Under the pieces are notes generated by a model. That model had not been told where the DNA came from, made no database searches, and worked only from the letters and a program-made list of their open reading frames with translations. The position numbers were made by a program, and so were the translations under genes. Source: Aliarcobacter sp. (GTDB lineage Bacteria > Campylobacterota > Campylobacteria > Campylobacterales > Arcobacteraceae). Taken from it: a stretch of 64,000 nucleotides of DNA. The stretch is taken from the NCBI GenBank assembly GCA_028689025.1, contig JAQTXA010000002.1, forward strand, positions 186,001 through 250,000, given 5' to 3'. Below, piece after piece: positions 45,749-63,975 of the stretch (its first letter is position 1; each line of letters begins with the position of its first letter).

Positions 45749-48109
45749 TTATTTATCAGCACTCTTTTTAGCTGTTGTTTTTTTTGCCGTTGTTTTTTTA
45801 ACAGTTGGCTCTTTTTTTGTAGTTGTTTTTTTAGCCGTTGATGATTTAGGAGATTTTGAATCTTTAGCAATTATTTCTAAACATTGTTCAAGTGTTAAAT
45901 CATTTGCTTCCATTCCTTTTGGAATTTTGAAATTCTTTCTACCTTGTTTTACATAAGGACCATATTGACCTATTAAAATTTGGATTTTTTCTTTGTCAAA
46001 TGATTTGATTGTAGATTTCTCTTTGGCTTCATCTAAATCTTTAATAATCTCTAATGCTCTATTTAAATCGACAGTATAAGGATCATCAGTTTTTAGTGAA
46101 TAATATTTAGTTTTAATTTGTAAATATGGACCAAATCTTCCAATATTTGCTTTAATTTCATCCCCATTTGCATCAAGTCCTACAACTCTTGGAAGAGTAA
46201 ATAAAAACATTGCTTCTTCAAATGTAATTGTGTCCATATTTAAATGGTTTGGAATTGCCACAAATTTTGGTTTTTCTTCATCATCTTTTGTTCCAATTTG
46301 AATAAATGGACCAAATCTTCCCACACGCGCACTAACTGGTTTTCCAGATTTTGGATCAGTTCCTATTTCTCGCACTTGTAAATAATCTTCTTTATTTACA
46401 CTTGTCTCTTTTTCATCAATAGTTTTTTTGAAACTTCCGTAAAAATCTCTCATTACTTGTTCCCAAGCAATTTTTCCCTCTGCAATTTCATCGAACTCTT
46501 CTTCAATTTTTGCAGTAAATCCTAAATCTATAATATATGAAAAGTGATCAACTAAAAAACTATTTACAACTTCACCTGTTGGTGTTGGAATTAGTTTTTT
46601 ATCTTCAGTTTTTGTTACATATTCTCTTGCTTGAATAGTTGAAATTGTTGGAGCATAAGTTGAAGGACGTCCTATTCCTTCACTTTCAAGTTTTTTTACA
46701 AGTGATGCTTCTGTATATCGTGCTGGTGGTTTTGTAAAGTTTTGTTCACATTCAAGGTTTTCTAACTCTAAAATTGTTCCAACATCTATGTTTGGTAAGA
46801 TTTTTTCAGTGCTATCAAGGGCAGATTCTGGATTATCGCTACCTTCTGTGTAAGCTTTCATGAATCCAGCAAAAATAATTCTTTGACCTTTTACTTGGAA
46901 TTCAAACTCTTTATTTTTTCCTGCTTCAATTTTATAAGTAGTGTTTGCAATTTTTGCAACTGCCATTTGAGTTGCTAATGTTCTTTTCCAAATAAGACTA
47001 TAAAGTTTGTATTGAATATTTTCAACATGAGCTTTAATCATACTTGGTCTTAAAGCTAAATTTACAGGTCTAATTGCTTCATGGGCTTCTTGTGCACCTT
47101 TTGCTTTTGACTTGTAAACTCTTGGTTTTGGCAATGAATACTCTTTTCCATACTCTTCTTCAATAACAGCTTTAGCAGCAGTTGTAGCAACTGTTGAAAG
47201 GTTTAATGAGTCAGTTCTCATATAAGTAATTAAACCGCCTGTGTGGCCTGGGATATTACCTACATTCCCCTCATAAAGTTGTTGAGCAACAATCATTGTT
47301 TGTTTAACTGAAAGTCCAAGTTTTCTACTTGCTTCTTGTTGAAGTGTTGAAGTAGTAAATGGAGCTGCTGGATTTCTAGTGCTATCTTTTTCTTCAATAT
47401 CAGTTAATTTATAAATACCTTGATTTAAAGAGTCCTCAATTTTTAATGCTTGTTCTTCATTTTCAACTTTTGAAGTTTTACCATTTATTTTTGCTAACTC
47501 TGCTTTTAATTCTGGATTTATAAAATCAGCTTTTACTCTCCAATACTCTTCTGGAATAAATGCTCTTATTTCATTTTCTCTATCAACTATGATTCTAACT
47601 GCAACTGATTGAACACGTCCAGCACTTAGTCCATATCTTACTTTTTTCCATAAAAGTGGTGAAAGTTCATATCCTACGGCTCTATCTAAAATTCTTCTTG
47701 CTTGTTGAGCATCAACTAAATTTTGATCCACATCTCTTGGATGTGCTAAAGCTTCTAAAATTGCATCTTTTGTAATTTCGTGAAATACAATTCTTTTTAT
47801 AGGATTTTTTTCGATTTTTAATGCAGGAATTAAGTGCCAAGCAATAGCTTCCCCTTCCCTATCCTCATCGGCCGCTAGGTAAATAGTTGTATCTTTATTA
47901 ATATGTTTTTTTAAATCGCTTATTACTTTTTTCTTATCTGTTGATACTAAATATTTTGGTTTAAAGTTATCATCTGGGTCAAAACCTAATTGAGATTTTG
48001 GTAAGTCTCTTACATGCCCCATTGAGGCCATTACTGTGTAATCACTACCTAAAAATTTCGATATTGTTTTCGCTTTTGCTGGGGACTCCACTATTACTAA
48101 ATTCTTCAC
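45749..48109 (-). CDS. topA: DNA topoisomerase I
   Basis: Relaxes negative supercoils by transient single-strand breaks. It has 786 residues. The N-terminal Toprim domain shows VIVESPAKAKTISKFLG and DEDREGEAIAWHL; the catalytic tyrosine is Tyr296 in TYMRTDSLNLS. Toward the C terminus are repeats of the GRFGPFIQIG/GRFGPYLQIK type, in place of CxxC zinc ribbons, then a Lys/Thr-rich tail (last ~35 residues). The start is GTG 48109 with AAGG upstream. Confidence 0.97.
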   Translation of the reverse strand: MKNLVIVESPAKAKTISKFLGSDYTVMASMGHVRDLPKSQLGFDPDDNFKPKYLVSTDKKKVISDLKKHINKDTTIYLAADEDREGEAIAWHLIPALKIEKNPIKRIVFHEITKDAILEALAHPRDVDQNLVDAQQARRILDRAVGYELSPLLWKKVRYGLSAGRVQSVAVRIIVDRENEIRAFIPEEYWRVKADFINPELKAELAKINGKTSKVENEEQALKIEDSLNQGIYKLTDIEEKDSTRNPAAPFTTSTLQQEASRKLGLSVKQTMIVAQQLYEGNVGNIPGHTGGLITYMRTDSLNLSTVATTAAKAVIEEEYGKEYSLPKPRVYKSKAKGAQEAHEAIRPVNLALRPSMIKAHVENIQYKLYSLIWKRTLATQMAVAKIANTTYKIEAGKNKEFEFQVKGQRIIFAGFMKAYTEGSDNPESALDSTEKILPNIDVGTILELENLECEQNFTKPPARYTEASLVKKLESEGIGRPSTYAPTISTIQAREYVTKTEDKKLIPTPTGEVVNSFLVDHFSYIIDLGFTAKIEEEFDEIAEGKIAWEQVMRDFYGSFKKTIDEKETSVNKEDYLQVREIGTDPKSGKPVSARVGRFGPFIQIGTKDDEEKPKFVAIPNHLNMDTITFEEAMFLFTLPRVVGLDANGDEIKANIGRFGPYLQIKTKYYSLKTDDPYTVDLNRALEIIKDLDEAKEKSTIKSFDKEKIQILIGQYGPYVKQGRKNFKIPKGMEANDLTLEQCLEIIAKDSKSPKSSTAKKTTTKKEPTVKKTTAKKTTAKKSADK

Positions 48110-48154
48110 TAAAAAACCTTCATTATTTTTAAAGTTTGCATTCTAACATAAATA

Positions 48155-48182
48155 GATTATAATTTACTTGTAAATTATAATC
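48155..48182 (-). terminator. Hairpin across the murB stop codon
   Basis: GATTATAATTTA at 48155-48166 pairs perfectly with TAAATTATAATC at 48171-48182 around a 4-base loop. The arm on the coding side encodes the last murB codons and the loop side the stop. It is nearly all A/T and lacks a T tract, so termination strength is uncertain. Confidence 0.45.
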
Positions 48183-48949
48183 TCTTCTTCTATATCTATA
48201 TTAAACTGCTCTTTTATTTTTTTCTTTGCTTCTTCTATTAAACAAATTGCATCTTCAAATGAACCAGAACCATAATTTACTAAGAAATTTGCATGTTCCT
48301 CTGAAAAACTCATATCACCTTGTCTTTTACCTTTTAATCCAATTGCTTCAATTAATCTTCCTGCAAAGTCACCTTTTGGATTTTTAAAACAACTTCCAGC
48401 ACTTGGAACATGAGGTTGATTATCTCTCATTTTATTAAACTCTTTTAACATCTCTTTGCTAAAACCATACTCTATATTGAAGACTACTTCATAAACGATA
48501 GTATCAATTTTAGTCTCTCTGTAAGAAAAATTTACATCTTCTTTTTTAATATATCCATCTTTTGTTTTAATACTATTAATATAGTTAAACATTTCCCAAG
48601 ATTTAAGTCCGGCATTCATTTTAACTAAACCACCTAAATTACCAGGTAATTTTGCTAAAAACTCTAAGTTTGCAATATCATTATTTCTAGTATATGTTAA
48701 AAGTTTGCCAGATGTAGTTGCGCATCCTACAAAAAGTAAATTTCCTTCTTGCTTAATATAATCAAACTCTTCACCCAAAATTGCGAATTTCTTATTAATA
48801 TTTGGGGAAATCAGAAGATTATTACCTCTTCCTATGATTTGGTAATCACTATAGTCACCTATTTCATTTATCTCTAAAACATCTAAAACTGGACCTATTT
48901 TTATAGAAGAGTACTTTTTAAAATCAATTGTTCTTATACTATTTTGCAT
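48164..48949 (-). CDS. murB: UDP-N-acetylenolpyruvoylglucosamine reductase MurB
   Basis: FAD enzyme that reduces UDP-GlcNAc-enolpyruvate to UDP-MurNAc. With 261 residues it is the short type found in this phylum. GRGNNLLISPN and LAKLPGNLGGLVKMNAG are the FAD-binding parts, SAGSCFKNP contains the catalytic Ser, and SEEHANFLVN supplies the late conserved residues. It starts 3 bases after mqnD. Confidence 0.94.
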   Translation of the reverse strand: MQNSIRTIDFKKYSSIKIGPVLDVLEINEIGDYSDYQIIGRGNNLLISPNINKKFAILGEEFDYIKQEGNLLFVGCATTSGKLLTYTRNNDIANLEFLAKLPGNLGGLVKMNAGLKSWEMFNYINSIKTKDGYIKKEDVNFSYRETKIDTIVYEVVFNIEYGFSKEMLKEFNKMRDNQPHVPSAGSCFKNPKGDFAGRLIEAIGLKGKRQGDMSFSEEHANFLVNYGSGSFEDAICLIEEAKKKIKEQFNIDIEEEIIIYK

Positions 48950-48952
48950 CTA

Positions 48953-49816
48953 TTATCTAGCTCTTAACTCTTCATACTCATTTGGAATTAAAAAATCTTC
49001 TGCTTTTATTAGATTTTCATAAAAGCCATTTTTATATCCTAACTCATACAATTTATCTAAAGCTTTATATTGAATCTCACTCATTTTAACTGAGTTATCA
49101 TTTGCGTATAAATCTAAATATTTATCTAAAGTTGCTGCATCAACTCTGATTAATCCTTTTTCTAACAACATAGGTGCTAAAACTTTTCTGTTTTTATTTG
49201 CAACTTCAACTGCTTTTATTAAAGTATTTTCATAATCAATGGCACTATGAAGTGGAATTGAACGTCTTAAACACATTCCACCAAGGGGTAATGGTAAATT
49301 TCCACCGCTTAATTCCACCCAAATATCCCACATTTCACGTTCAACTTCTAACTCATTATTGTAAGTTAAAATTGATTCATGAATTAATACACCTGCATCT
49401 ACAGTTCCATTTAAAACTGCATCTTCAATTTCTAAGAAATTCATATATGTAACTTTTGCATTTGGATATGCGATTTTAAATAAAAGTGCATTTGTAGTAA
49501 ATTCACCACTAAGAGCCACTTTAAAATTTTTCTTTAATTTTGTGCCTTTTTTCTTTATAAGTTTTGGACCATATCCTTCACCAAAAGAGACAGCTGTTTT
49601 TAATAGGGCATAATCATCTTTAACAAAAGGATATAAAGCAAAAGAGATTGCACAAATATCATACTCACCTTTTAGAGTTGCTTGATTTAAACTCTCTATA
49701 TCATCTGCAATATTTTCAAATTTTGCGTCTGCTGGAGTAACCCAACCGAACTTAATTGCATAATACATAAAAATATCATCAGCATCTGGTGAATGAGCAA
49801 CACTTATAGTTTTCAA
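48953..49816 (-). CDS. mqnD: 1,4-dihydroxy-6-naphthoate synthase MqnD
   Basis: Last dedicated step of the futalosine route to menaquinone, giving dihydroxynaphthoate. The 287 residues have a periplasmic-binding-protein-like fold without a signal peptide. The start ISVAHSPDADDIFMYYA, LSGEFTTNALL, ESILTYNN and LPLPLGGMCLRRS fit the MqnA/MqnD family. MqnA is the close alternative. ATG 49816 has AAGGA upstream. Menaquinone is the expected electron acceptor for the complex I encoded nearby. Confidence 0.86.
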   Translation of the reverse strand: MKTISVAHSPDADDIFMYYAIKFGWVTPADAKFENIADDIESLNQATLKGEYDICAISFALYPFVKDDYALLKTAVSFGEGYGPKLIKKKGTKLKKNFKVALSGEFTTNALLFKIAYPNAKVTYMNFLEIEDAVLNGTVDAGVLIHESILTYNNELEVEREMWDIWVELSGGNLPLPLGGMCLRRSIPLHSAIDYENTLIKAVEVANKNRKVLAPMLLEKGLIRVDAATLDKYLDLYANDNSVKMSEIQYKALDKLYELGYKNGFYENLIKAEDFLIPNEYEELRAR

Positions 49817-50436: not shown

Positions 50437-51939
50437 TTAAAACCCTGAACTTGAAACAAATGCAGAAATTATATTTAAAAGCGGATCTACTAAAAAAATT
50501 GAAATAAGTGTCAAGAAAACAGCAAATCCAACAACTGATTTCATTGGAGTTGTTGCATTTTGCATAAACTTAGTATTAACACCTTGTTCTGGATCTCTTA
50601 AAAACATATATGATACTGGTCTTAAATAGTAATATGCAGCAATTGCTGAATTTAGAACAATAATAACAGCTAATGCAATATGTCCAGCATTTACAGCACT
50701 TGCAATTAAATACATTTTACCCCAAAATAGTGCAAATGGTGGCAGTCCCGTTAATGCAAATAAGAACATTCCTAAAATTGAAGCGGTAAATGGTGATATT
50801 TGAGCAAGTCCTGAGAATTTTTTAAATGTATATGGTGATTCATAATCATTAAATTCTTTTCCTCTGTTAAGCCATAACATACCAAATGCACCAAAATTCG
50901 TAATTGTAAATAAAACCCAATATAAGAATAATGCATTTGTTGCTTGTTGAGTTCCAATTACAATAGCAGCCATTGCCATACCTGCATTTGAAATAGATGA
51001 ATATGCAAGCATTCTTTTAATATCTTTTTGCTGTAAGGCAATTAAGTTTGGAATAGTCATAGTTAAAATTACAGTTACATAAAGCATTGTTTGAATAATA
51101 ATATCATTTGCATGAATAAATATCTCAAAAAATCTTAATGCCACTACAAAACCTGCCATTTTTGGAACAACTGATAAAAAACCTGCCATTGCAGAAGTTG
51201 ATCCTTGATAAACATCCGGAACCCAAATATGGTATGGAAATAAAGATAATTTAAATCCAATAGCCGCAAACATAAATACGAATCCAACTAAAACTAAAAT
51301 ATAATTAGAATAATTCTCATGTGTTAAGAATCCATCTTCAGTTAAAACTTGTGCCATTTGAGATAATTCTACAGTTCCTGTAATTGCATAAAATATCATA
51401 GAACCAAATACAAAAAAAGCAGCTGCAAGGGCACCCATTGTGAAGTATTTAATTGCAGCTTCAATTGATACCATTCTATTGTGCATTGCAATCATTGTAT
51501 ATAAAGCAAGTGATGATGTTTCAAGTCCAACAAATATTAAAATCAAAGAGTCAGAACTTACCATAAATTGGAATCCTGCCACTGTAAATAAATATAAGGC
51601 AAAATATTCAGCATATCTAAACTCTTGAAGTCTTAATTTTGATAATCCTAAAAAAACAAAAAGGATTGAGCCACCAATTATTATACACTGAGATAAAACT
51701 GCAATTCCATCTAATAACATTAAATCAAACATACCTCTTTGTTCACCATGGAAAGCTAAAAGAGTAAATAAGTCAAAAATTAGAAATAGTACTACTAAAA
51801 TTACATAAAGTGATTTATGTTTATTTTTATTAAAAATGTCAGTTAATAAAATACTCAAAGCTCCAATAATTGCAATTGAAACTGGTGCGATTGTTCCTAG
51901 ATTTAAACTTTCTAGACTTATTTTTATAGGCTCAAGCAT
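50437..51939 (-). CDS. nuoN: NADH-quinone oxidoreductase-type complex I subunit N
   Basis: Antiporter-like proton-pumping subunit of complex I, 500 residues with about 14 membrane helices. The conserved core includes LSLFPYHIWVPDVYQGS and DIKRMLAYSSISNAGMA. It is the last gene of the operon; its ATG shares bases with the nuoM stop (TAATG). Confidence 0.95.
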   Translation of the reverse strand: MLEPIKISLESLNLGTIAPVSIAIIGALSILLTDIFNKNKHKSLYVILVVLFLIFDLFTLLAFHGEQRGMFDLMLLDGIAVLSQCIIIGGSILFVFLGLSKLRLQEFRYAEYFALYLFTVAGFQFMVSSDSLILIFVGLETSSLALYTMIAMHNRMVSIEAAIKYFTMGALAAAFFVFGSMIFYAITGTVELSQMAQVLTEDGFLTHENYSNYILVLVGFVFMFAAIGFKLSLFPYHIWVPDVYQGSTSAMAGFLSVVPKMAGFVVALRFFEIFIHANDIIIQTMLYVTVILTMTIPNLIALQQKDIKRMLAYSSISNAGMAMAAIVIGTQQATNALFLYWVLFTITNFGAFGMLWLNRGKEFNDYESPYTFKKFSGLAQISPFTASILGMFLFALTGLPPFALFWGKMYLIASAVNAGHIALAVIIVLNSAIAAYYYLRPVSYMFLRDPEQGVNTKFMQNATTPMKSVVGFAVFLTLISIFLVDPLLNIISAFVSSSGF

Positions 51940-53465
51940 TATTTAACCTCCCCAATAGAGTTTAAAGCTTTTAATTTAACTTTTGTATCCTCATTAACTG
52001 CTTTTATTTCCATTACTTTTGTAAGTTGAGTTACTGTTGTATTTAATGGATCTAAAATTATTTTTGGATAAATTCCTAATGCTATAATTAAAAGAACCAA
52101 TGAAGAAAGTGCTACTAATTCTCTTCCTGCAATATCACTCATACCTTTATTTTCAGGTTTTGTTAATTTTCCAAAGAATGTTCTTTTATACATTGCCAAC
52201 ATATAAACTGCACTTAAAACAATAGTTAAAGATGCGATAAATGTTAAAATTGGAGAGTATTTAAAGAATCCTAAAAGAGATAAGAACTCACCAATAAATC
52301 CAATTGTTAATGGTAATCCTATAGATGCCATTAATACAACTGCATAAACAAGAGCAAACATTGGCATATTATGTGCTAATCCACCAAACTCTTTTATCAT
52401 CTTGGTTTTTCTTCTATCGTATAAAACTCCAACACTCATAAATAGTGCTCCTGAAACAATACCATGTCCAATCATTAGATAAACTGCACCTGAAATTCCC
52501 TCAGTATTTAAAGCAAAAACTCCAAGAGTAATAACACCCATGTGAGAAATTGATGAGTATGCAATCATTTGTTTCATATCTTCTTGAGCATAGGCAATCA
52601 TTGCTGTATAAATAATTGCAATTAGTCCTAGAGTTGCCATGAATCCTGAAAAATAAACACTTGCATCTGGAAATAGTGGAAGTGAAAATCTAATAAATCC
52701 ATAAGTTTCCATTTTTAGTAAAACAGCTGCTAACATAATTGAACCAATTGTTGGTGCTTGTCCATGAGCTAGTGGAAGCCAAGTATGGAATGGAAACATT
52801 GGAACTTTTACGGCAAAGGCCATAAAGAATGCAATAAATAACCATAATTGTAAATCAAATGGAAGAATTATACTATTCCACTCTAATACACTAAAACTCC
52901 ATGTACCTGTTGTTTGATAAAATATATATCCAAAATACAAAATTCCAATAAGCATTATTAAAGAACCTGTGAATGTATATAAAAAGAATTTAATAGCTGC
53001 ATAAAATCTTTTTTCTGCTCCCCAGAATCCAATAACATAAAACATTGGAATAAGTGTTAATTCCCAGAAAATATAAAATAAAATTAAATCTAAAGAAACA
53101 AAAACCCCAACCATTGTCATCTCTAAAAACAACATTGTAATAATTAAGTTTTTTACATCTTTTTTCTCAGTTAAACCTATTAATGCAATCATCGTCATAA
53201 ACGTAATCATAATAATTAGAAATAGAGAAACCCCATCAATACCAACTAAATAATTAATTCCATAAGAACTTATAAGAGGTAAACTTTGTACAAATTGCAT
53301 ACCTGCAACGTTTGTATCAAAATAGTACCAAAGTAAAAGTGACAATACAAATTCAACAACTGTAACAACAACTCCATATTGTCTCATAGAATCTTTATCA
53401 ATTAAAAATCCAACAACTGCTGCAGCTGCTGGAAAGAATATCAACATAGATAAAATATTTTCCAT
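51939..53465 (-). CDS. nuoM: Complex I subunit M
   Basis: Antiporter-like proton-pumping subunit, 508 residues with about 14 helices. VPMFPFHTWLPLAHGQAPT and EDMKQMIAYSSISHMGV carry the conserved charged and His residues of the channel. It starts 12 bases after nuoL and overlaps nuoN. Confidence 0.96.
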   Translation of the reverse strand: MENILSMLIFFPAAAAVVGFLIDKDSMRQYGVVVTVVEFVLSLLLWYYFDTNVAGMQFVQSLPLISSYGINYLVGIDGVSLFLIIMITFMTMIALIGLTEKKDVKNLIITMLFLEMTMVGVFVSLDLILFYIFWELTLIPMFYVIGFWGAEKRFYAAIKFFLYTFTGSLIMLIGILYFGYIFYQTTGTWSFSVLEWNSIILPFDLQLWLFIAFFMAFAVKVPMFPFHTWLPLAHGQAPTIGSIMLAAVLLKMETYGFIRFSLPLFPDASVYFSGFMATLGLIAIIYTAMIAYAQEDMKQMIAYSSISHMGVITLGVFALNTEGISGAVYLMIGHGIVSGALFMSVGVLYDRRKTKMIKEFGGLAHNMPMFALVYAVVLMASIGLPLTIGFIGEFLSLLGFFKYSPILTFIASLTIVLSAVYMLAMYKRTFFGKLTKPENKGMSDIAGRELVALSSLVLLIIALGIYPKIILDPLNTTVTQLTKVMEIKAVNEDTKVKLKALNSIGEVK

Positions 53466-53477
53466 TTACATAACCCC

Positions 53478-55337
53478 TTAAAGTACCGATAAAACTAAGG
53501 CAAAGATTAATCCTGTGATTAATCCAAGAGCCATAAGTTTTAACGATGATGATAAATTACCAGATTGAATTGGTCTTGCTTTTACACCTAGTTTATTAAC
53601 AAAGTGAGCTAAGCCATCAATTGATGCATCAATTAATTTTATTTCTATTGTTTTCCATGCCCAAACTGAGAATTTATGATATGGTTTTGAAATGGCAACT
53701 TCGTAAAATCTTGGAATAAAGTATTGGTTACTTAACAATTTATAAATTGAAGTCTCTTCCCAAGATTTACTAAATCCACCGTTCTTATATTTAAATACTG
53801 CAACTAAAATACCAAATATTGCAACAGCACTTGTTACTAATATTAATATCCAAGAAGTTGAATGACTAATGTGTTCAGGTTCCCACGTTGGTAAAACTTT
53901 TGTAACAAACTCAACAAATGAGTGTTCAAACCAACCAGCAATTACAGCTAAAACTGCAAGTGGAATCATTGCAGCTATTACAAAGTTTTTAGCTTCGTGA
54001 GGATGATGTTCTTCATTTGAATAGTTTTGTTCTCCAAAGAAAATTTTCATTACAAGTCTAAATGAATAAAATGCTGTTAAACCAGCAGTTATCCATAAAA
54101 TTGCCCATAAAACAATTGCATTTGAATTAAATGCAACTTCAAGAATTTTATCTTTCGAGAAGAACCCAGCAAGTGGAAAAATTCCAGCAAGTGCTAAAGA
54201 AGCAAGAGTCATAATAATTGAAGTTGCCTTCATTTTATTATGTAATCCACCCATTTTCCTAATATCTAATTCCTCATCCATAGCATGCATAACATTTCCA
54301 GCACCTAAGAATAAAACCGATTTAAAGAAAGCGTGAGCTGCTAAATGGAAAAGTGCAACCCAATAAGCACCAAGACCAGCAGCAACGAACATATATCCTA
54401 ATTGAGATAGTGTAGAATAAGCAATGATTCTTTTCATATCATTATTAACTAAAGCCATAGAAGCTGCAAAAATAGCAACAAAAGCTCCAAGAGCTGCTAT
54501 TGCATATCCGACTTCAGGAATTAAAGTATAAAGTTCATTTGATCTTACAACTAAATAAACCCCTGCTGTTACCATAGTTGCTGCGTGAATTAGTGCTGAA
54601 ACGGGAGTTGGTCCTTCCATCGCATCTGCAAGCCATGTATGAAGTGGAAACTGTGCTGATTTTCCCATAGCTCCTAAGAATAATAAAGCACCAATCCAAA
54701 CTAAAATGTTGTTATCTAAAGTTGAAATTTTTGCAAATACGATATCATATTGTAAACTTCCAATATTCCAATAAATTACAAACATTCCAAGAAGTAATCC
54801 TAAATCTCCAATTCTATTCATAATAAAGGCTTCATTTGCTGCCCATGTTGCAGATTCTTTGTGGTACCAAAAACCAATTAGTAACCATGAACAAACTCCA
54901 ACACCTTCCCATCCTATAAATAAAACAGCAAAGTTATCACTCATTACTAAAACTAACATTGAAAATACGAATGCAGATAAATAAGAGAAGTATCTATTAA
55001 ATCCTTTGTCGTGATCCATATATCCAATAGAGTGGATATGAACCATAGTAGAAACAACAGTAACAACAGACATCATTACAACACTTACTTCATCAACCAC
55101 AAAACCAAAAGGAATATTTAAACTTCCTATTACAATCCAATCAAATAAATTTACATGTAAAGTTGTTTCTGTTGTGTAAACAAAATATAATAGATACAAA
55201 GATGCATACATAGAAACAGCTAACATAAAAGATGTAAACAATCCAGTAAATAGTGTTTTTTTCTGCATTGAAAATAGTGCAGCTACTAAAGAACCTACAA
55301 GTGGGGCAAAAAGTGCAATGTATATATATTTTTCCAT
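53478..55337 (-). CDS. nuoL: Complex I subunit L
   Basis: Distal antiporter-like subunit, 619 residues. AQFPLHTWLADAMEGPTPVS and NDMKRIIAYSTLSQLGYM are the family hallmarks, and a long amphipathic helix region plus a last membrane anchor follow toward the C terminus, as expected for the lateral arm. It starts 2 bases after nuoK. Confidence 0.97.
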   Translation of the reverse strand: MEKYIYIALFAPLVGSLVAALFSMQKKTLFTGLFTSFMLAVSMYASLYLLYFVYTTETTLHVNLFDWIVIGSLNIPFGFVVDEVSVVMMSVVTVVSTMVHIHSIGYMDHDKGFNRYFSYLSAFVFSMLVLVMSDNFAVLFIGWEGVGVCSWLLIGFWYHKESATWAANEAFIMNRIGDLGLLLGMFVIYWNIGSLQYDIVFAKISTLDNNILVWIGALLFLGAMGKSAQFPLHTWLADAMEGPTPVSALIHAATMVTAGVYLVVRSNELYTLIPEVGYAIAALGAFVAIFAASMALVNNDMKRIIAYSTLSQLGYMFVAAGLGAYWVALFHLAAHAFFKSVLFLGAGNVMHAMDEELDIRKMGGLHNKMKATSIIMTLASLALAGIFPLAGFFSKDKILEVAFNSNAIVLWAILWITAGLTAFYSFRLVMKIFFGEQNYSNEEHHPHEAKNFVIAAMIPLAVLAVIAGWFEHSFVEFVTKVLPTWEPEHISHSTSWILILVTSAVAIFGILVAVFKYKNGGFSKSWEETSIYKLLSNQYFIPRFYEVAISKPYHKFSVWAWKTIEIKLIDASIDGLAHFVNKLGVKARPIQSGNLSSSLKLMALGLITGLIFALVLSVL

Positions 55338-55339
55338 AA

Positions 55340-55639
55340 TTACCCTTTCATCCCTGCAATATCATCTAAGTTAATAGAACCTGTTCTTTTGTACCATAAA
55401 ATTAGTAAACCAAGACCAATTGCAACTTCACTTGCAGCAACTGCTATAATAAAAAATGCAAACATTTGTCCTGTTAAATCCCCGTGAAATTTTGAGATTG
55501 CAGCAAATCCTACATTTACCGCATTTAACATAATTTCTGTAGAGAAAAACAACATTAAAACATTTTTTCTTCTAATTACACCAATTAAACCTATACAAAA
55601 TAGAATTGTTGAGAGTATTAAATATGCATTAAGAGTCAT
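55340..55639 (-). CDS. nuoK: Complex I subunit K
   Basis: A 99-residue subunit with three membrane helices. Conserved acidic residues occur within helices (FSTEIMLNAVN and AASEVAIGLGL), as in other NuoK. It overlaps nuoJ by 4 bases. Confidence 0.95.
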   Translation of the reverse strand: MTLNAYLILSTILFCIGLIGVIRRKNVLMLFFSTEIMLNAVNVGFAAISKFHGDLTGQMFAFFIIAVAASEVAIGLGLLILWYKRTGSINLDDIAGMKG

Positions 55640-56217
55640 TTAACATCCTTTGAAGATGCTGCATCAAGTCTGATTTTTTCATCTATTTCTTCTTCTTTCA
55701 TTTCAGAATATGATTCATTCATTTTTTTCCCTGCTAATACAATTCCACCAATCATTGCAACCAAAAGCATGATTGCTGCTAATTCAAATGCTAATAAATA
55801 TTTTGTAAACAGTACATATCCAACATCAACTGTATTTCCATATTCAGGATGAACTGGATAATTTGCTTCAATGTTTTGTCCAATAATCGGAGCTAAAAAT
55901 ACAACTACTAAAATTAGTGCTAACATTCCTGAAAGTAAAAATACTAATCTTGGATTTTTTATCTTCTCTTTTACTTCTGATAATGAGTCAAAAAACATCA
56001 TTCCAAATGCATATAAAGCCATAATTGCACCTGTATAAACTACAATTTGAACGGCTCCTAGGAAATCTGCATTTAATAAAAAGAAAAATGCTGAGATAAA
56101 AATCATTCCAGCAGCAAGTGAACTTAATGCATATAAAGCATTATTTGTTAAAACTGTAATACTAAACATACTAATAGTTAACACTGAAAATATTATAAAA
56201 GCTATAACTTCAAACAT
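55636..56217 (-). CDS. nuoJ: Complex I subunit J
   Basis: A 193-residue membrane subunit with five helices. FLGAVQIVVYTGAIMALYAF is the conserved helix 3 that undergoes a pi-bulge change in the enzyme cycle. The C-terminal ~30 residues are hydrophilic and charged (KEEEIDEKIRLD). It lies 11 bases after nuoI. Confidence 0.95.
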   Translation of the reverse strand: MFEVIAFIIFSVLTISMFSITVLTNNALYALSSLAAGMIFISAFFFLLNADFLGAVQIVVYTGAIMALYAFGMMFFDSLSEVKEKIKNPRLVFLLSGMLALILVVVFLAPIIGQNIEANYPVHPEYGNTVDVGYVLFTKYLLAFELAAIMLLVAMIGGIVLAGKKMNESYSEMKEEEIDEKIRLDAASSKDVK

Positions 56218-56228
56218 CTAGACTCCTC

Positions 56229-56849
56229 TTAGTATGATAATGGTGTTTTTTTAATTTTTTTATCTGCATCTGGTGACACCGAACCATATCCATCAAATTC
56301 AAGTTGTGCACCTAAACCATTTGCTGATGTTAAAATATCTTCTTTAAGTGAGAAATGTGCTCTTTGTTCACTTGAATTTTCATATCTTCCACCATGAACG
56401 ATTGCTAGTTCTGGACAAACCTCAGCACAATATCCACAGAAAATACATCTTCCCATGTTTATCGTATATTGCATTACTTCTTTTCTAGAATTTTCATCAA
56501 TTCTTGTTTCCATTCTAATGCAGTTTGATATACAAATTTTTTCACAAAGTCCACAACCAATACATCTCTCTTCACCTGACTCTAAAAGTCTTAAAAGTTT
56601 GTGTACTGCTCTATATCTTGGACCTATTGGAAGTTTTTCTTTTGGATATTGAACTGTTGCCATTTCACCTTTAAATAATGCTCTATACATTATTCCAAAA
56701 GTAATTTTCATACCAACAAAAAGTTCGCCTTTTACAGATCTTGATAATACTTGTTTGAACATATCCCAAGAAGTTTTAGGATAATTATCTTCTTGAACCG
56801 TAACATATCCATCTGATACATTTCTATTTTTAAAATCGTTTAGTTCCAT
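56229..56849 (-). CDS. nuoI: Complex I subunit I, 8Fe-8S ferredoxin-like
   Basis: A 206-residue peripheral-arm subunit carrying clusters N6a and N6b. The two ligand sets are CIGCGLCEKIC and CIFCGYCAEVCPE. The N-terminal ~60 residues are longer than in E. coli NuoI (180 residues). It lies between nuoH and nuoJ. Confidence 0.96.
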   Translation of the reverse strand: MELNDFKNRNVSDGYVTVQEDNYPKTSWDMFKQVLSRSVKGELFVGMKITFGIMYRALFKGEMATVQYPKEKLPIGPRYRAVHKLLRLLESGEERCIGCGLCEKICISNCIRMETRIDENSRKEVMQYTINMGRCIFCGYCAEVCPELAIVHGGRYENSSEQRAHFSLKEDILTSANGLGAQLEFDGYGSVSPDADKKIKKTPLSY

Positions 56850-56858
56850 TCTAACTCC

Positions 56859-57851
56859 CTAAAACATCATCACAAAGCCAGTAACTAAAATATTTAGTAC
56901 TGCAAGTGGCATTAATATTTTCCAACATAACCACATTAATTGATCAGGTCTAATATGAGGCCAAGAAGCTCTTGTCCATAAAAAGATAAAAATCAAAAAC
57001 ATAACTTTTAATACAATTGCAAATCCACCTGGGATAAACCATAAATCATTAAATCCACCTAAGAAGATAAGTGTAATTAAAAATGAAATTGTAAAAAGGT
57101 TAGCATACTCTCCAATAAAAAACATTCCCCATCTCATACCTGAATACTCAGTTGCATAACCAGCAACTAACTCAGCTTCATGTTCAAGTAAGTCAAATGG
57201 AGTTCTATTTGTTTCAGCAAATCCAGCAATTGTGAATAAAATAAAAGCTAATGGTTGTGACCAAATAATCCAGTCAGTAACTCCACCTGATTGATAGTTA
57301 TTAATATCAATTAAAGATAAACTTCCAACCATCATAAGTGGAGCTAAAAGTGAAAGTCCTGAAACTACTTCATAAGATAAAAGTTGAATTGCAGTTCTAG
57401 CACCCCCAAGTAATGCCCATTTATTTGCACTACTCATACCACCAAGTAATGGTCCATAAAGTCCAACAGCACCCACAGACATTACAAATAAAACACCCAC
57501 ATTAATATCTGAAATAATTGGTCTAACTGTATATCCAAACATCTCAAATTCTGGGAAAAATGGAACAGCACTCATTGCAATAAATGCAGTTGCAGCTGTA
57601 ATTAAAGGGGCCACCATAAAAATAGGTCTATTTGCATTTGCAGGAATAAAGTCCTCTTTACAAAATAGTTTAATTCCATCTGCTGCTATTTGCAATAATC
57701 CATAAGGTCCAACATTTGTAGGCCCTAATCTTCTTTGCATAAATGCTAGAACTTTTCTTTCAATATAAGTTGTAAATCCAGCAAGGGCTGAGAAAACTGC
57801 AAGAACAACTACTACTTTGATTACTGTTTCTAATATGATACTTGTTTCCAT
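56859..57851 (-). CDS. nuoH: Complex I subunit H
   Basis: A 330-residue membrane subunit with eight to nine helices, forming the quinone chamber. Typical segments are TYIERKVLAFMQRRLGPTNV, GLLQIAADGIKLFCKED and ETNRTPFDLLEHEAELVAGY. It starts 1 base after nuoG. Confidence 0.97.
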   Translation of the reverse strand: METSIILETVIKVVVVLAVFSALAGFTTYIERKVLAFMQRRLGPTNVGPYGLLQIAADGIKLFCKEDFIPANANRPIFMVAPLITAATAFIAMSAVPFFPEFEMFGYTVRPIISDINVGVLFVMSVGAVGLYGPLLGGMSSANKWALLGGARTAIQLLSYEVVSGLSLLAPLMMVGSLSLIDINNYQSGGVTDWIIWSQPLAFILFTIAGFAETNRTPFDLLEHEAELVAGYATEYSGMRWGMFFIGEYANLFTISFLITLIFLGGFNDLWFIPGGFAIVLKVMFLIFIFLWTRASWPHIRPDQLMWLCWKILMPLAVLNILVTGFVMMF

Positions 57852-57852
57852 A

Positions 57853-60327
57853 CTATGCCTTTACTACTTTTGCTTTATTAAATCTATAACTGTTAAATAA
57901 AACATTTGATGCACTGTTTTTCATAAATGTTGATACATAAGGAATATTTCCATCTATTTGAATATCAACAAAAGCATTTAATACTAACTCTTGATTATTA
58001 GCATTTATTTTTACTTTATCACCCTCAGATAATTCAAGTTTTTCAAACAAAGCTTTTGAGAAGAAAATTCCATCTTGTAAATTTTCTTTAAATTCATGGC
58101 TAATTGCTGTAAATTCATTAAATTGATTAATTGGATTTGCTTTATAAATTAAAATCTCATCAGCAGCTAAAGTGATTTTTTCTACATCTATTTGTTTTGT
58201 TGTATCTTGAGTTAAAGTATCATTTGAAGTTAATTCATAACCTCTATATTCAACTTGGTCATTTCCAAATTTGTTTGGTAAATCATCAAAAGCAAGAGCT
58301 TTATAACCTTTTTCAAGAGGAAGTTTAGCTGTGTATTCTATTGTATATTCAACATCTTCATTTAAAAGTTCATTTGCAATATCATTTAATGTATAACCTT
58401 TAAACTCTAAAGCTGCATTTGTAGGAATTACTTTTTTGTCAATATTTGTAAAAGTTCCCTCTTGTTGATTAAGTGCTGGAATATCTAAATCTGCATCACC
58501 TAAAGCTGAAAGTTCAAAATCAGCTTTTACGTTATATCCAACACTAAATCCTGATTCTTCACGTGAAAGTGTACAAATTTGTGCAACACCTAAAGTATTT
58601 GTTTGAGATGGAATGATTACCACATCAAAAGCTGAATATTTATCAACTAAACCACAAAGTTTTGCAAGATTTTCAGCATTTGGATGAGTTATTAAATCTT
58701 CTCCAACCATTAAAGAGAAAGTATCTTTTTTAACTAACATTTCATCAACTAAATCAAGGAATTTTTCATCTTTCCCAAAAGCCTCAACTAATGTTGTATA
58801 TTCATACTTAACTTCTTTTGAAACTTTATTAGTTACAACTTTTTTAACTTCTTTCTCTTCACCATTTGCTTCATCAACAACTATTTCAACAACTGTTTCT
58901 TTAACATCTTCAGTAACAGTTTTTGTTTTCATTTCTTTAAATGAATCTATATACTCTTGAACTTCAGCTGGTAAATCTTTTGCAAATTTATATAAAATAA
59001 AATATAAAATTGACTCTTCAACCATCGCATCATGGTATATAAAATCTGTAGTTTTACCTTTTTTACCAATTTTTTCCATAATTGGATCAGCTAGAGGATG
59101 AAAATATAAACCACTTCCTTTATTCATTGAAACTGAGTTATTAAAGGCATATCTTGCATTTGGTAAATCTGATTTCAAATATGAACCTACAGAAATTACA
59201 AAGTTTGAATTATGTACATCTGATAGTTTTGATGAATAAAGTGATTTTCCTGAAGTTTTAGAATAGTTTCTTAAAAACTCTTGGTATCTTCTAGCATCTT
59301 CATTTACAAGGTTTGCTCCCATTTTTTGAGCGATTTTTTGTAATATTAAAGCTTCTTCATTTGTTATAAAAGAATTAAATTTGATATTTTTTGCTTTTTT
59401 AAAGGCTTCAAGTGCTTTTGCAAAAGCATCTTTATCTTTAGATTGAACTTTATTTTCAAAATCATAAGCAAATCTTCCAGCTCCATTTACAGTTGAAAAA
59501 TGTGGTTCACTATTTACTCTATAAATTTTTTTAGTTGCATGTTTGTCTATTGATTCATGTTTTACATCATAATATAAAAATGCACAATCAGATGAGTGAG
59601 GATTAGCTGCTGGTATTTTTTTAAGTTCCCAAGCATTTGAAGTATATTGGAAATCATGTGAAACTAATGCTCCAACGGGACAGGCACTTATACACTCTCC
59701 ACAGTTTGTACAGGCATCTGCATCATAACCAATAAGTGATTTATTAAGTTTATTCCACATTGCATAGGCATCTTTTGGCATTTCATCTTTAAATACTTTA
59801 TCAATGTTATCTGAATCTCTTTTTACCGTACTAAGGGCACTTGAACCTACCATATCTTCACATACAGTTACACATCTTTCACAAACAATACATAAAGCTG
59901 GGTCATAATTCATAACTCCCCAATGAGCAGTTGGTCTGTGAATATCTTTTATACTATAGTTTTGAGAATCAACTTTCATGTATAAAGAGTAATTTTGTAA
60001 TTCACACTCACCACTTTGGTCACAAACACCACATTGTAATGGATGGTTTACATCGTAAACTTCCATTATTGCTCGTCTTTCTTTTTCAATATTTTCTGTA
60101 ACTGTTGTAATGTTCATATCAGCTTTAACTTTTGTGTTACAACCATATACTTGTTTTCCATCCGCTTCAACTAAACATAATCTACATGCAAGTGTTGGTG
60201 AACATCTTGTTAAATAACAAACAGCAGGAACAAATACATCGTTTGCTCTTGCCACATTTAAAATTGATTCACCATCTTTGGCTTGAACACTTTTACCATC
60301 AATTGTTAATGTAATCATCTCGCTCAT
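57853..60327 (-). CDS. nuoG: Complex I subunit G, Fe-S and molybdopterin-oxidoreductase-like
   Basis: An 824-residue peripheral subunit. An N-terminal [2Fe-2S] domain carries CYLTRCSPTLACRLC; a His/Cys-ligated cluster region follows (HPLQCGVCDQSGECELQNYS); then two 4Fe-4S sites (CIVCERCVTVC and CTNCGECISACP). The rest is a degenerate molybdopterin-type domain. Residues ~467-509 form a Lys/Glu/Val-rich insertion. Its ATG shares bases with the TAA of the gene before it (TAATG). With no NuoF, electrons must enter here or through an interacting protein; in C. jejuni flavodoxin has that role. Confidence 0.95.
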   Translation of the reverse strand: MSEMITLTIDGKSVQAKDGESILNVARANDVFVPAVCYLTRCSPTLACRLCLVEADGKQVYGCNTKVKADMNITTVTENIEKERRAIMEVYDVNHPLQCGVCDQSGECELQNYSLYMKVDSQNYSIKDIHRPTAHWGVMNYDPALCIVCERCVTVCEDMVGSSALSTVKRDSDNIDKVFKDEMPKDAYAMWNKLNKSLIGYDADACTNCGECISACPVGALVSHDFQYTSNAWELKKIPAANPHSSDCAFLYYDVKHESIDKHATKKIYRVNSEPHFSTVNGAGRFAYDFENKVQSKDKDAFAKALEAFKKAKNIKFNSFITNEEALILQKIAQKMGANLVNEDARRYQEFLRNYSKTSGKSLYSSKLSDVHNSNFVISVGSYLKSDLPNARYAFNNSVSMNKGSGLYFHPLADPIMEKIGKKGKTTDFIYHDAMVEESILYFILYKFAKDLPAEVQEYIDSFKEMKTKTVTEDVKETVVEIVVDEANGEEKEVKKVVTNKVSKEVKYEYTTLVEAFGKDEKFLDLVDEMLVKKDTFSLMVGEDLITHPNAENLAKLCGLVDKYSAFDVVIIPSQTNTLGVAQICTLSREESGFSVGYNVKADFELSALGDADLDIPALNQQEGTFTNIDKKVIPTNAALEFKGYTLNDIANELLNEDVEYTIEYTAKLPLEKGYKALAFDDLPNKFGNDQVEYRGYELTSNDTLTQDTTKQIDVEKITLAADEILIYKANPINQFNEFTAISHEFKENLQDGIFFSKALFEKLELSEGDKVKINANNQELVLNAFVDIQIDGNIPYVSTFMKNSASNVLFNSYRFNKAKVVKA

Positions 60328-61124
60328 TACGCTTCAACCTTTTCAATCTTTACTTGTTTATAAATATAGCCATTAAAAATATCTTCATTAATTTTTGTTT
60401 TTAGAATTGCAATTGTTCCATGTAAGTTTTCATCAATTCTTAATACTCTTTTGATTTTTTCATTTTTTGATATTACAAAAACTTCATTACCATTTGATAC
60501 CTTTGCTATATTTGCAAAAGTTTGACTTGTTATTAATTCATCATTTTGTTCATCTACTAATTTGTAAACTAATGTTCCGTTAAATGATTTTAATTCTTCT
60601 AGCTCTTCTAAATCAAAATCTGTACAAGAATTGATTTTTTGCCCTAATTCTTCATTTAGAACAACTAAATTAAAATCTGAATATTTTTTTAATATTGCTA
60701 ATAATTTAACAATATTTTCTACTCTTTCGTGATTTACTAAATCATTTCCAACAATTAATGTTTTAACTTTTGCTTCTTGCGAGTTTTCAAAAGCTTCTTC
60801 AAACTCTTCTTCCCCTGCACTACTTTCAGCACTAATGTAACCTAAGTCTAAATCCTCTAAAAAGTTTTTAATTTTTTCATCACAATTTGAAGCAAAACTA
60901 TTTAATAATAAAGCACTAATTCCCTCTTCACTTCCAACTTCGTATTTTATTAGTTGAGAATAAAATGGTTTTAAATTAAAATTATCAATTGGATGCATAT
61001 AAATAAATTTTGCACTATTAGTTTCAACAGCTTTTATAATTGAATCTTTAAGGTCTTTCTCTTCAACAAAAGTTCCAAAAGAGATAATAAAATCGCTTTT
61101 TAAAATTAGCTCTATTTTATTCAT
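60327..61124 (-). CDS. NuoF-position protein, resembles the C-terminal half of NuoG
   Basis: A 265-residue protein in the place of nuoF. It has no FMN or NADH site and no Fe-S ligand set, so it is not NuoF. By eye it matches the adjacent NuoG: FIISFGTFVEEKDL against FVISVGSYLKSDL, and TLIVGNDLVNHERVENIVKL against SLMVGEDLITHPNAENLAKL, in the same order. It corresponds in position to Cj1574c/HP1265 of relatives. ATG 61124 was chosen; the frame extends to a TTG at 61139. It overlaps the NuoE-position gene by 8 bases. Confidence 0.85.
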   Translation of the reverse strand: MNKIELILKSDFIISFGTFVEEKDLKDSIIKAVETNSAKFIYMHPIDNFNLKPFYSQLIKYEVGSEEGISALLLNSFASNCDEKIKNFLEDLDLGYISAESSAGEEEFEEAFENSQEAKVKTLIVGNDLVNHERVENIVKLLAILKKYSDFNLVVLNEELGQKINSCTDFDLEELEELKSFNGTLVYKLVDEQNDELITSQTFANIAKVSNGNEVFVISKNEKIKRVLRIDENLHGTIAILKTKINEDIFNGYIYKQVKIEKVEA

Positions 61125-61419
61125 CTTTTGCACTTTCAACAGCTACAGCTTTTCTCTCATCATCCTGATGTTCTCTCTCCGCTGGTTCTGGTTTTACTTT
61201 TTTTACAACTAATGTCCAATCAACTTCATTAAACTTAATTGAGTTCATCAATGTATAACCCGCTTCATAAATTACATCGGCTGATTTTTGGATATTAGAA
61301 AAATCTCCAATTTCAAACATAATAATTGCTGTCTCTTCAGGAGCAATTTGTTTATCCATTAACTCTAACATTCTAGTGTAGAAGTCATTTTTCAAGTGTC
61401 TTAAATCAAATCTTTTCAT
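61117..61419 (-). CDS. NuoE-position small protein
   Basis: A 100-residue soluble protein in the place of nuoE. It lacks the cysteines of a thioredoxin-like [2Fe-2S] NuoE. The first ~75 residues look like a compact alpha/beta fold (TAIIMFEIGDFSNIQKSAD, WTLVVKKVKP); the last ~25 are charged and probably disordered. It corresponds in position to Cj1575c/HP1264. A role in docking the electron donor is suspected from the absence of NuoE and NuoF but cannot be shown here. Confidence 0.85.
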   Translation of the reverse strand: MKRFDLRHLKNDFYTRMLELMDKQIAPEETAIIMFEIGDFSNIQKSADVIYEAGYTLMNSIKFNEVDWTLVVKKVKPEPAEREHQDDERKAVAVESAKDE

Positions 61420-61430
61420 AACTTCATCCC

Positions 61431-62657
61431 CTATCTATCTATTTCACCAAACACGATGTTTAGGTTACCAATAATTGTAACCACATCGGCTAATTGACAT
61501 CCAACTAATAGCTCTTCTAAAATTGCTGTATGTTGAAAACTAGGAGTTCTAAGTTTCATTCTATATGCATAAGGACTTCCATCACTTACTACAAAATAAC
61601 CTAATTCACCTTTTGGAGATTCAGTTGCCACATAAACTTCACCAACTGGTGGTCTCATTCCTTGAGTTACTAAAACAAAGTGTTGCATTAAAGAGTAGTT
61701 TTGAGTCATAATTTGCTCTTTTGGAGCTGAGATATAATTTGGAGAATGAGCCATTAATTGAGTATCTGACTCTTCGTACATAGGAACTAATTGTTTTAAA
61801 ATTTTTGAAGATTCTCTCATTTCAGCAATACAGATTTTGTATCTTCCATAAGAGTCACAAGTATACGAAACTGGAACATCAAAATCAAGTTCAGGATAAA
61901 TACCATAAGGCATCTCTTTTCTTAAATCCCATTTGATTCCAGAACCTCGTAAAATAATCCCTGAACATCCCCAATCTTTTGCCATTTCAGGAGTAATAAC
62001 ACCAACATTTTCAAGTCTCATTTTCCAGATTCTATTTTCAGTTAAAAGCCCTTCATAAGTCTTTAACTCTGTTTCTAATACATCTAAAAATGATAAACAA
62101 TCAGCGGTCCAATTAGCTGGTAAATCTAAAGGAACTCCCCCGATTCTTACAGCACTGTGTGTTAGTCTTGCCCCACAATAGTCCTCAATTAAGTCCATTG
62201 CATATTCTCTTTCTCTAAAACAGTAAAGGAACATAGACATTGCCCCCACATCAAGAGCATGCGTTGCAAGCCAAAAAAGGTGTGAAGTGATTCTATTTAA
62301 TTCTAAAAGCATAGTTCTAATAATTTCAGCTCGTCTTGGAGCTTCAATACCTAAAAGTTGCTCAATTGCTAAGGCATAACCATAGTTATTAGAAGTTGCA
62401 GCGATATAATCCATTCTATCAGTTGTTGGTAAGAATTCATTATAAATCATATTCTCAGCCATTTTTTCCATACCTCTGTGAAGGTATCCAATCATTGGTC
62501 TTGATTTAACAACTTCTTCACCTTGAAGTTCTAAAATAAGTCTTAATTGTCCGTGAGCAGATGGATGTTGTGGACCGAAGTTCACCATCATCGTATTATC
62601 ATCACGCTCAAAGTGAATGTTTTCAAAAAAAGGTTTTAGTCTATTTGGTTGTTGCAT
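61431..62657 (-). CDS. nuoD: Complex I subunit D
   Basis: The 49-kDa-type subunit at the quinone site, 408 residues, not fused to Nuo[20 protein letters not shown] near the N terminus includes the quinone-binding His, and [16 protein letters not shown] follows. The C terminus ends in the conserved IVFGEIDR. It lies 5 bases after nuoC. Confidence 0.97.
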
Positions 62658-62662
62658 ATTTT

Positions 62663-63466
62663 CTACCTTCTTCTTTTTAAAACAACTGATTCTTCAGGTT
62701 TTAGTTTTTTCATAATTTTTGAAGTATTCTCTTCTTGATAAGAAATATTTGTCTCTGGTTCAAACTGAGAAATATCTGTATCAAATGGAACTTCATGCCC
62801 AAGTCTTGCAAATCTTGTAGTATCGTATCTATCAATTGCTGCTGGATCTCTTTGTTCAGGGCCAATTATATCTCTAGCTTCTTTTCCAAATATTTTGTCA
62901 ACTTCATACCAAGAAGCTGCTTCATCACCTTGAAGTGGATATGTTTTTTTAAGTGGGTGGTCATACCAATCATCTGGCATAATAATTCTTTTTAAATTAA
63001 AATGATTTACTACTTTTACACCTAACATATCGTACATTTCTCGCTCAGACCAGTTTGCAGATTTGAAAATAGAAGTTACAGACTCTATTGCTTCATCTTT
63101 TTGTAAAAAACATTTAACTCTTAATCTTTTATGTTTAGAAATTGATAACATCTCATAAAAAACTTCATATCCATCACGAGCTGCTAAATAATCAATTGCA
63201 GAAAGTTCTATTAACATGTCATATTCAAGTTCATCTTTTAAGAAATTCATAGTTTCAACAATAGCATTTTTATTAATATTTAAAACTAAGTGAGTGTGTT
63301 CAATATAAGCATCTTTGATTTCTATTACTTTAGAGATTTTTTCAAAATCACTTGAAAAAATTTCATCTGAATTTATTTCAAATCTAGGAACGGTAGGAGA
63401 GACAAAAAATCTATCTGAAAAGTATGCTTGTTTTTGAACGTTGTCTTTTGGCGTATATTTTCTCAT
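62663..63466 (-). CDS. nuoC: Complex I subunit C
   Basis: The 30-kDa-type subunit, 267 residues. [20 protein letters not shown] and the [20 protein letters not shown] stretch are the family signature. The first ~50 and last ~45 residues are extensions beyond the core. It overlaps nuoB by one base. Confidence 0.96.
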
Positions 63467-63975
63467 TATACTAACCTCTTCTTTTTGTGAGCTCTAAAAA
63501 TTGATTCTTTTCTGATTTTTTGTTGTAGTGTCATAAGGGCATATTGTAAAGTTTCAGGTCTTGGTGCACATCCTGGAAGATAAATATCAACTGGAATAAT
63601 TCTATCTGCACCTTGAACAGTTGCGTAAGTATTAAACATTCCACCTGTATTTGCACAAGACCCCATTGAAATTACCCATTTTGGATCTGGCATTTGGTCA
63701 TATAATCTTCTCATAAATTCAGCATGTTTTTTTGTAAGAGTTCCAGCAATAATTAAAACATCAGATTGTCTTGGACTTGCTCTAAAAATTGTTCCAAATC
63801 TATCGAAGTCATATCTTGAAGCTCCCGTTGCCATCATTTCAATAGCACAACATGCTAATCCATAAGTCATTGGCCATAAAGAGTTTGAACGACCGAAATT
63901 AACTAACTTATCAATTGTTGTTAATTTAACAGCAGCTCCATTATCTTGTAAATAATTTATTTTATGCTGTGCCAT
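63466..63975 (-). CDS. nuoB: Complex I subunit B
   Basis: Carries cluster N2, the last Fe-S centre before quinone. The 169 residues contain the adjacent Cys42-Cys43 ([10 protein letters not shown]), [12 protein letters not shown], and LPGCAPRPE, the full four-cysteine set. AAGGAG lies upstream of ATG 63975, inside the end of nuoA. Confidence 0.97.

Follow-up and report, generated by a model that had tools for sequence, protein, structure and literature searches.

In Campylobacter jejuni, nuoE and nuoF are replaced by Cj1575c and Cj1574c, whose presumed role is to pass on electrons from flavodoxin (PMC4178425). Cj1575c was scored as essential by TraDIS (PMC10077673), and HP1264 has been found to bind FMN (PMC6269979). 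HP1265 and Cj1574c, which are annotated as NuoF and correspond to one member of the Campylobacterota 'nuoXY' pair, are treated in the literature as novel NuoF replacements, whereas here they appear as counterparts of a protein family, hereafter S, for which descent from a full-length NuoG paralogue (NuoG2) is supported. S is homologous over its full length to the C-terminal MopB domains of NuoG/Nqo3 and has a similar fold, but lacks the Fe-S half and a central segment (approximately NuoG2 520-650), and carries a motif that is not found in NuoG1, the main NuoG. With the MopB oxidoreductases FdhH and NapA, S shares the fold over about 255 residues (Z 20-22), but it lacks domain I, half of domain II, and the conserved cofactor cysteine. 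The Stn/Nfn-ABC bifurcating transhydrogenases also combine NuoG-like and GltD-like parts, and 9bov and 8oh5 are among the NuoG2 matches; these parts form a soluble enzyme, whereas NuoG2 of Campylobacterota and its GltD-type companion, protein X, are encoded in a complex I operon. The FMN-binding protein HP1264 (2LXR), denoted NuoE', is the neighbor of S and is fused to S in one locus (L074), but its fold is unrelated to that of S. In the open-access papers searched, NuoG descent, NuoG2, the GltD-like protein and standalone copies of S go unmentioned, which is slight evidence of novelty.

The window analyzed here is a stretch of 64,000 nucleotides from an Aliarcobacter sp. genome, in which all the genes considered are on the minus strand. 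The S gene (60327..61124; 265 aa) occupies the 'NuoF' position between the gene for NuoE' (61117..61419; PF16514, E 1.5e-37; PDB 2LXR, E 2.6e-24) and nuoG1 (57853..60327; 824 aa; NCBIfam PRK08493, E 0), overlapping the former by 8 bases and the latter by 1 base. Beyond NuoE' are nuoD (61431..62657), the marker for the presence of the S operon in our genome survey, nuoC (62663..63466) and nuoB (63466..63975), with nuoA next, past the window end. On the other side, nuoH (56859..57851) and nuoI, J, K, L, M and N (50437..56849) are followed by the downstream flank of mqnD-like, murB-like and topA genes (45749..49816), giving the order AAA ATPase, nuoA-N, mqnD, murB, topA. The same genome encodes a second, canonical complex I operon (L183, G000:C28:30000-48000), in which NuoF is a true one and NuoC and NuoD are fused as NuoCD. 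A review states that A. butzleri has the canonical nuoEF, not nuoXY (PMC6682613); this statement could concern a second operon of the kind present in the window genome.

Homology and fold of S

The sequence-only reading had paired two segments of S with the adjoining NuoG. Both pairs are real and keep their order: BLASTP aligns residues 2-159 of S with NuoG1 at E 3e-8, and the NCBIfam model of Campylobacterota NuoG, PRK08493, matches S at 1.7e-23. A Pfam search with S gave no significant match. Profile-profile comparison, proposed by that reading as a check, was performed with hhalign and matched the S family (37 members) to NuoG1 with a probability of 99.8% and E 2.4e-27, against less than 1% for each of the controls (NuoD, NuoC, NuoH and GltD); the match to NuoG2 was stronger still (E 3.9e-63). 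The homology between S and NuoG is well beyond chance. Because the hhalign alignment, of S family columns 7-269 to NuoG1 columns 370-826, runs to the C-terminal end of NuoG, the two segments are pieces of a single full-length homology. The start of S maps past the N-terminal region of NuoG, so that S has no 2Fe-2S and 4Fe-4S domains and is not a full NuoG. No NuoF domain was detected in S with Pfam or NCBIfam, neither the NADH/FMN-binding part nor the 4Fe-4S (N3) part.

The structure prediction suggested as a second check returned a MopB fold. The AlphaFold2 model, built from 41 sequences, has a pLDDT of 93.1 and a pTM of 0.90, and matches MopB structures over about 255 of the 265 residues (Foldseek, VIA-align) with Z scores of 16-22: 21.8 for Methylorubrum FDH, 21.0 for FdhH, 20.2 for NapA and 16.2, over 241 residues, for E. 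coli NuoG (chain 7nz1_G). MopB proteins were found by the fold search only, the best E value in a direct PDB sequence search with the S family profile being 0.12. By both sequence homology and fold, S belongs to the family of NuoG C-terminal (MopB-like) domains, as a small MopB from which domain I and about half of domain II are missing. The S family alignment contains no conserved cysteine, and hence no cysteine cofactor ligand. These features strongly support the interpretation of S as a putative cofactor-free mini-MopB that has lost its cofactor sites.

The motif common to S and NuoG2 consists of two parts, YE-G-E (residues 61-66) and D-GY---E----EEE (93-107). In the window protein, the first is contained in YEVGSEE (residues 61-67; 60924..60944) and the second in LDLGYISAESSAGEEE (residues 92-107; 60804..60851). 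Y61 and E62 are conserved in operon-borne S, standalone S and NuoG2, but not in NuoG1; D93, G95, E100 and E105 are near-invariant across all S and NuoG2 and are missing in NuoG1. Extension of the family to HP1265, which had also been proposed, holds: in a genome with an HP1264 identical to 2LXR, the protein at the HP1265 position is a member of the S family. Cj1574c is assigned to the family by position, from the published gene order.

NuoG2, protein X and the short forms

In a phylum-wide search, S had a match in 373 of the 397 genomes, in many families inside a frame of 740-840 aa. This long form, NuoG2 (about 750 aa), is a full-length NuoG paralogue with N-terminal Fe-S domains that is present in many Campylobacterota, and its C221-C224-C228-C258, missing in NuoG1, resembles the N7 ligand pattern. 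The long-form operon has the order nuoB-C-D-E'-X-NuoG2-NuoG1-H-..., where X (about 665 aa) joins the C-terminal 4Fe-4S domain of NuoF (PF10589) to a GltD-like FAD/NAD(P)H part. In one example of X (L068:4756-6750, P0004), glycine takes the place of the third cysteine that is usual in the N3 motif (CGRCAPGR). In two Helicobacteraceae-like loci (L139, L140), NuoG2 is divergent, and the GltD-like protein, of 724-891 aa, does not match the usual one before residue 160. As raw counts of the listed forms that ignore kinship, X accompanies 84 of 84 long forms and 0 of 65 short forms.

In the tree of S and NuoG2, short forms are scattered among NuoG2: the short L067 adjoins the long L066 of the same genus, the short forms of Arcobacteraceae group with Arcobacteraceae long forms, and those of Helicobacteraceae-like genomes fall among Helicobacteraceae-like long forms. 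A single clade of short forms was rejected (p 0.026). The tree of six other operon proteins implies 8 changes among long, short and no form, of which at least 5-6 are forced by well-supported branches; the exact number of truncations is uncertain because support inside NuoG2 is uneven. NuoG2 apparently was cut down to its C-terminal half several times in parallel. In one genome (G233), a Nitratifractor MAG to judge by its contig, there are two nuo operons (L067, L158); each has a short S, and the two S differ in ancestry.

The sequence-only reading had derived S from a duplication of NuoG. The duplicate origin stands, from the hhalign comparison and the fold, but its source is NuoG2 and not the adjoining NuoG1. 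A direct, recent duplication of NuoG1 would be consistent with the significant BLASTP match between the two, but S members that match both score higher with NuoG2, NuoG1 does not have the S motif, and the grouping of S with NuoG1 was rejected (AU p 0.015), making this origin extremely unlikely. Derivation of S from NuoG2, on whose side S falls by its grouping and by the NuoG2-specific motif, is strongly supported by the sequence comparisons. The same reading suggested that S may add a module to complex I; it is rather the remnant of NuoG2 after loss of the Fe-S half and of protein X. The NuoF 'missing' from Campylobacter and Helicobacter is thereby identified as a truncated NuoG2, which accounts for how a phylum changed the input module of its complex I.

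S in genomes without the complex I operon

The operon nuoD is present in 330 of the 397 genomes and missing in 67, and S is kept in 58 of these 67. A retest of 35 of the 67 genomes with a broader profile found S in 33; G304 had no match, and G327 had one only within a NuoG-like frame of 788 aa. NuoE' was not found in the standalone-S genomes in which it was sought. In A. vitoriensis and A. cryaerophilus, among others, the order is AAA, S, mqnD, murB, topA, with few bases between S and its neighbors, and the AAA tree implies three separate operon removals in Arcobacteraceae (AU p 4e-5 within a genus). Similarly, a pflA-like gene comes next after nuoN in 7 of 7 operon-bearing Campylobacter/Helicobacter-like genomes, and next after S in relatives without the operon, some of which belong to the same genera. 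Repeated removal of the operon in place around S, with 13 genes lost and one kept, is strongly supported, although the number of independent removals would be smaller if the flanking region had been transferred horizontally. The neighbors of standalone S in Aliarcobacter and in Campylobacter- and Helicobacter-like genomes (AAA, mqnD, pflA) were considered as clues to function and set aside as uninformative, being the old flanks of the operon.

Standalone S is under purifying selection, with dN/dS of 0.11-0.39, compared to 0.15-0.30 for operon S. Conceivably, what is retained is not the protein but a promoter, within the S DNA, for mqnD or pflA, as in Aliarcobacter S adjoins mqnD, and in Campylobacter/Helicobacter-like genomes it adjoins pflA. 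We give this explanation hardly any credence: selection acts at the protein level, the same motif is kept, and the neighbors are different in the f5 genomes (hemN) and in f3 g24. The f5 group would correspond to Nautiliaceae, and f2 and f3 to Helicobacteraceae and Campylobacteraceae, judging from HP1264 identity, pflA and genome features.

The published model of Cj1574c makes S a flavodoxin-docking subunit of complex I only, and standalone copies would then be relics. The position of the S gene and the C. jejuni work, as summarized in PMC4178425, favor this model, but the standalone copies are intact and under selection, S is the sole operon gene kept through repeated independent removals, and two S-bearing f5 genomes have no long-chain flavodoxin; we consider it quite improbable. 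S is not confined to genomes with both complex I and flavodoxin, and the data do not support flavodoxin as the only reason why S is kept. The long-chain flavodoxin FldA also occurs in S-less genomes, and its candidacy as an obligate partner of S was not supported by co-occurrence. POR/OOR, another candidate partner, is universal across the genomes, so that its co-occurrence with S is uninformative.

The sequence-only reading suggested that S may add a second MopB-like module where electrons enter complex I; a role confined to that end is hard to reconcile with the retention of S in operon-less genomes. Given the retention in most operon-less genomes, the repeated removals around S and the purifying selection, it is very likely that the function of S does not depend on complex I. 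Such a function is consistent with the reported essentiality of Cj1574c: Weerakoon and Olson reportedly found in 2008 that Cj1574c is essential and the nuo genes are not. The puzzle posed by that report becomes a testable question, namely, the role of S where the operon is gone. Overall, we regard it as probable that S is an orphan, cofactor-free mini-MopB that arose by repeated truncation of NuoG2 and has an important job outside complex I, for which this one gene is spared when the operon is deleted.

S is not needed everywhere, as indicated by complex I lineages without it and by losses of both. Two loci of gastric-Helicobacter-like genomes (L141, L142) have a nuo operon without S, in which nuoD, nuoE' and nuoG are contiguous, and a few genomes (g33) have lost both S and the operon. 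In gastric-type Helicobacter, a very divergent copy may be hidden. In three other loci (L144, L062, L240), NuoG1 is split between two frames, by a frameshift or a sequencing error.

Candidate partners of S

Following loss of the operon, S might have joined a different enzyme of the MopB or complex I type, such as a canonical complex I or a group 4 hydrogenase. The second complex I of the window genome is compatible with such a move, as are the NuoD-like hydrogenase subunits of f5 genomes and the lack of nuoE, F, G and K in Nautilia (PMC2628731). Some operon-less Aliarcobacter, too, may carry a canonical complex I usable by S, the canonical operon having been checked in the window genome. We nevertheless hold this explanation to be unlikely: two S-bearing genomes (G045, G100) lack any kind of NuoD homologue at E 1e-3, and similarity to MopB alone does not name a partner.

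In the model that we favor, the ancestral complex I would have contained two NuoG subunits and the NAD(P)H/FAD protein X; upon loss of X, the Fe-S half of NuoG2 would have been lost repeatedly, with survival of the C-terminal MopB domains, and the resulting S would have outlived the operon. These steps are supported by the tests described above. Within complex I, S would hold the FMN protein NuoE' against NuoG1, and electrons from flavodoxin or ferredoxin would enter via the FMN of NuoE', with S itself carrying none. The docking of S between NuoE' and NuoG1 is suggested by the gene order and by one type of fusion, a NuoE'-S protein of 353 aa (L074:7185-8246; also G257 and G339, by frame length). 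The conserved YE-G-E...D-GY---E----EEE surface of S would bind a second, cytoplasmic partner, presumably outside complex I, and this complex-I-independent job would make S essential in C. jejuni and cause it to be kept when complex I is deleted. Taken as a whole, from the two-NuoG ancestor through repeated NuoG2 truncation to an S that bridges NuoE' and NuoG1 and has a second partner elsewhere, the model appears moderately probable. In f5 genomes (L150, L166, L167), the S gene lies directly after hemE-hemB-hemC-hemN.
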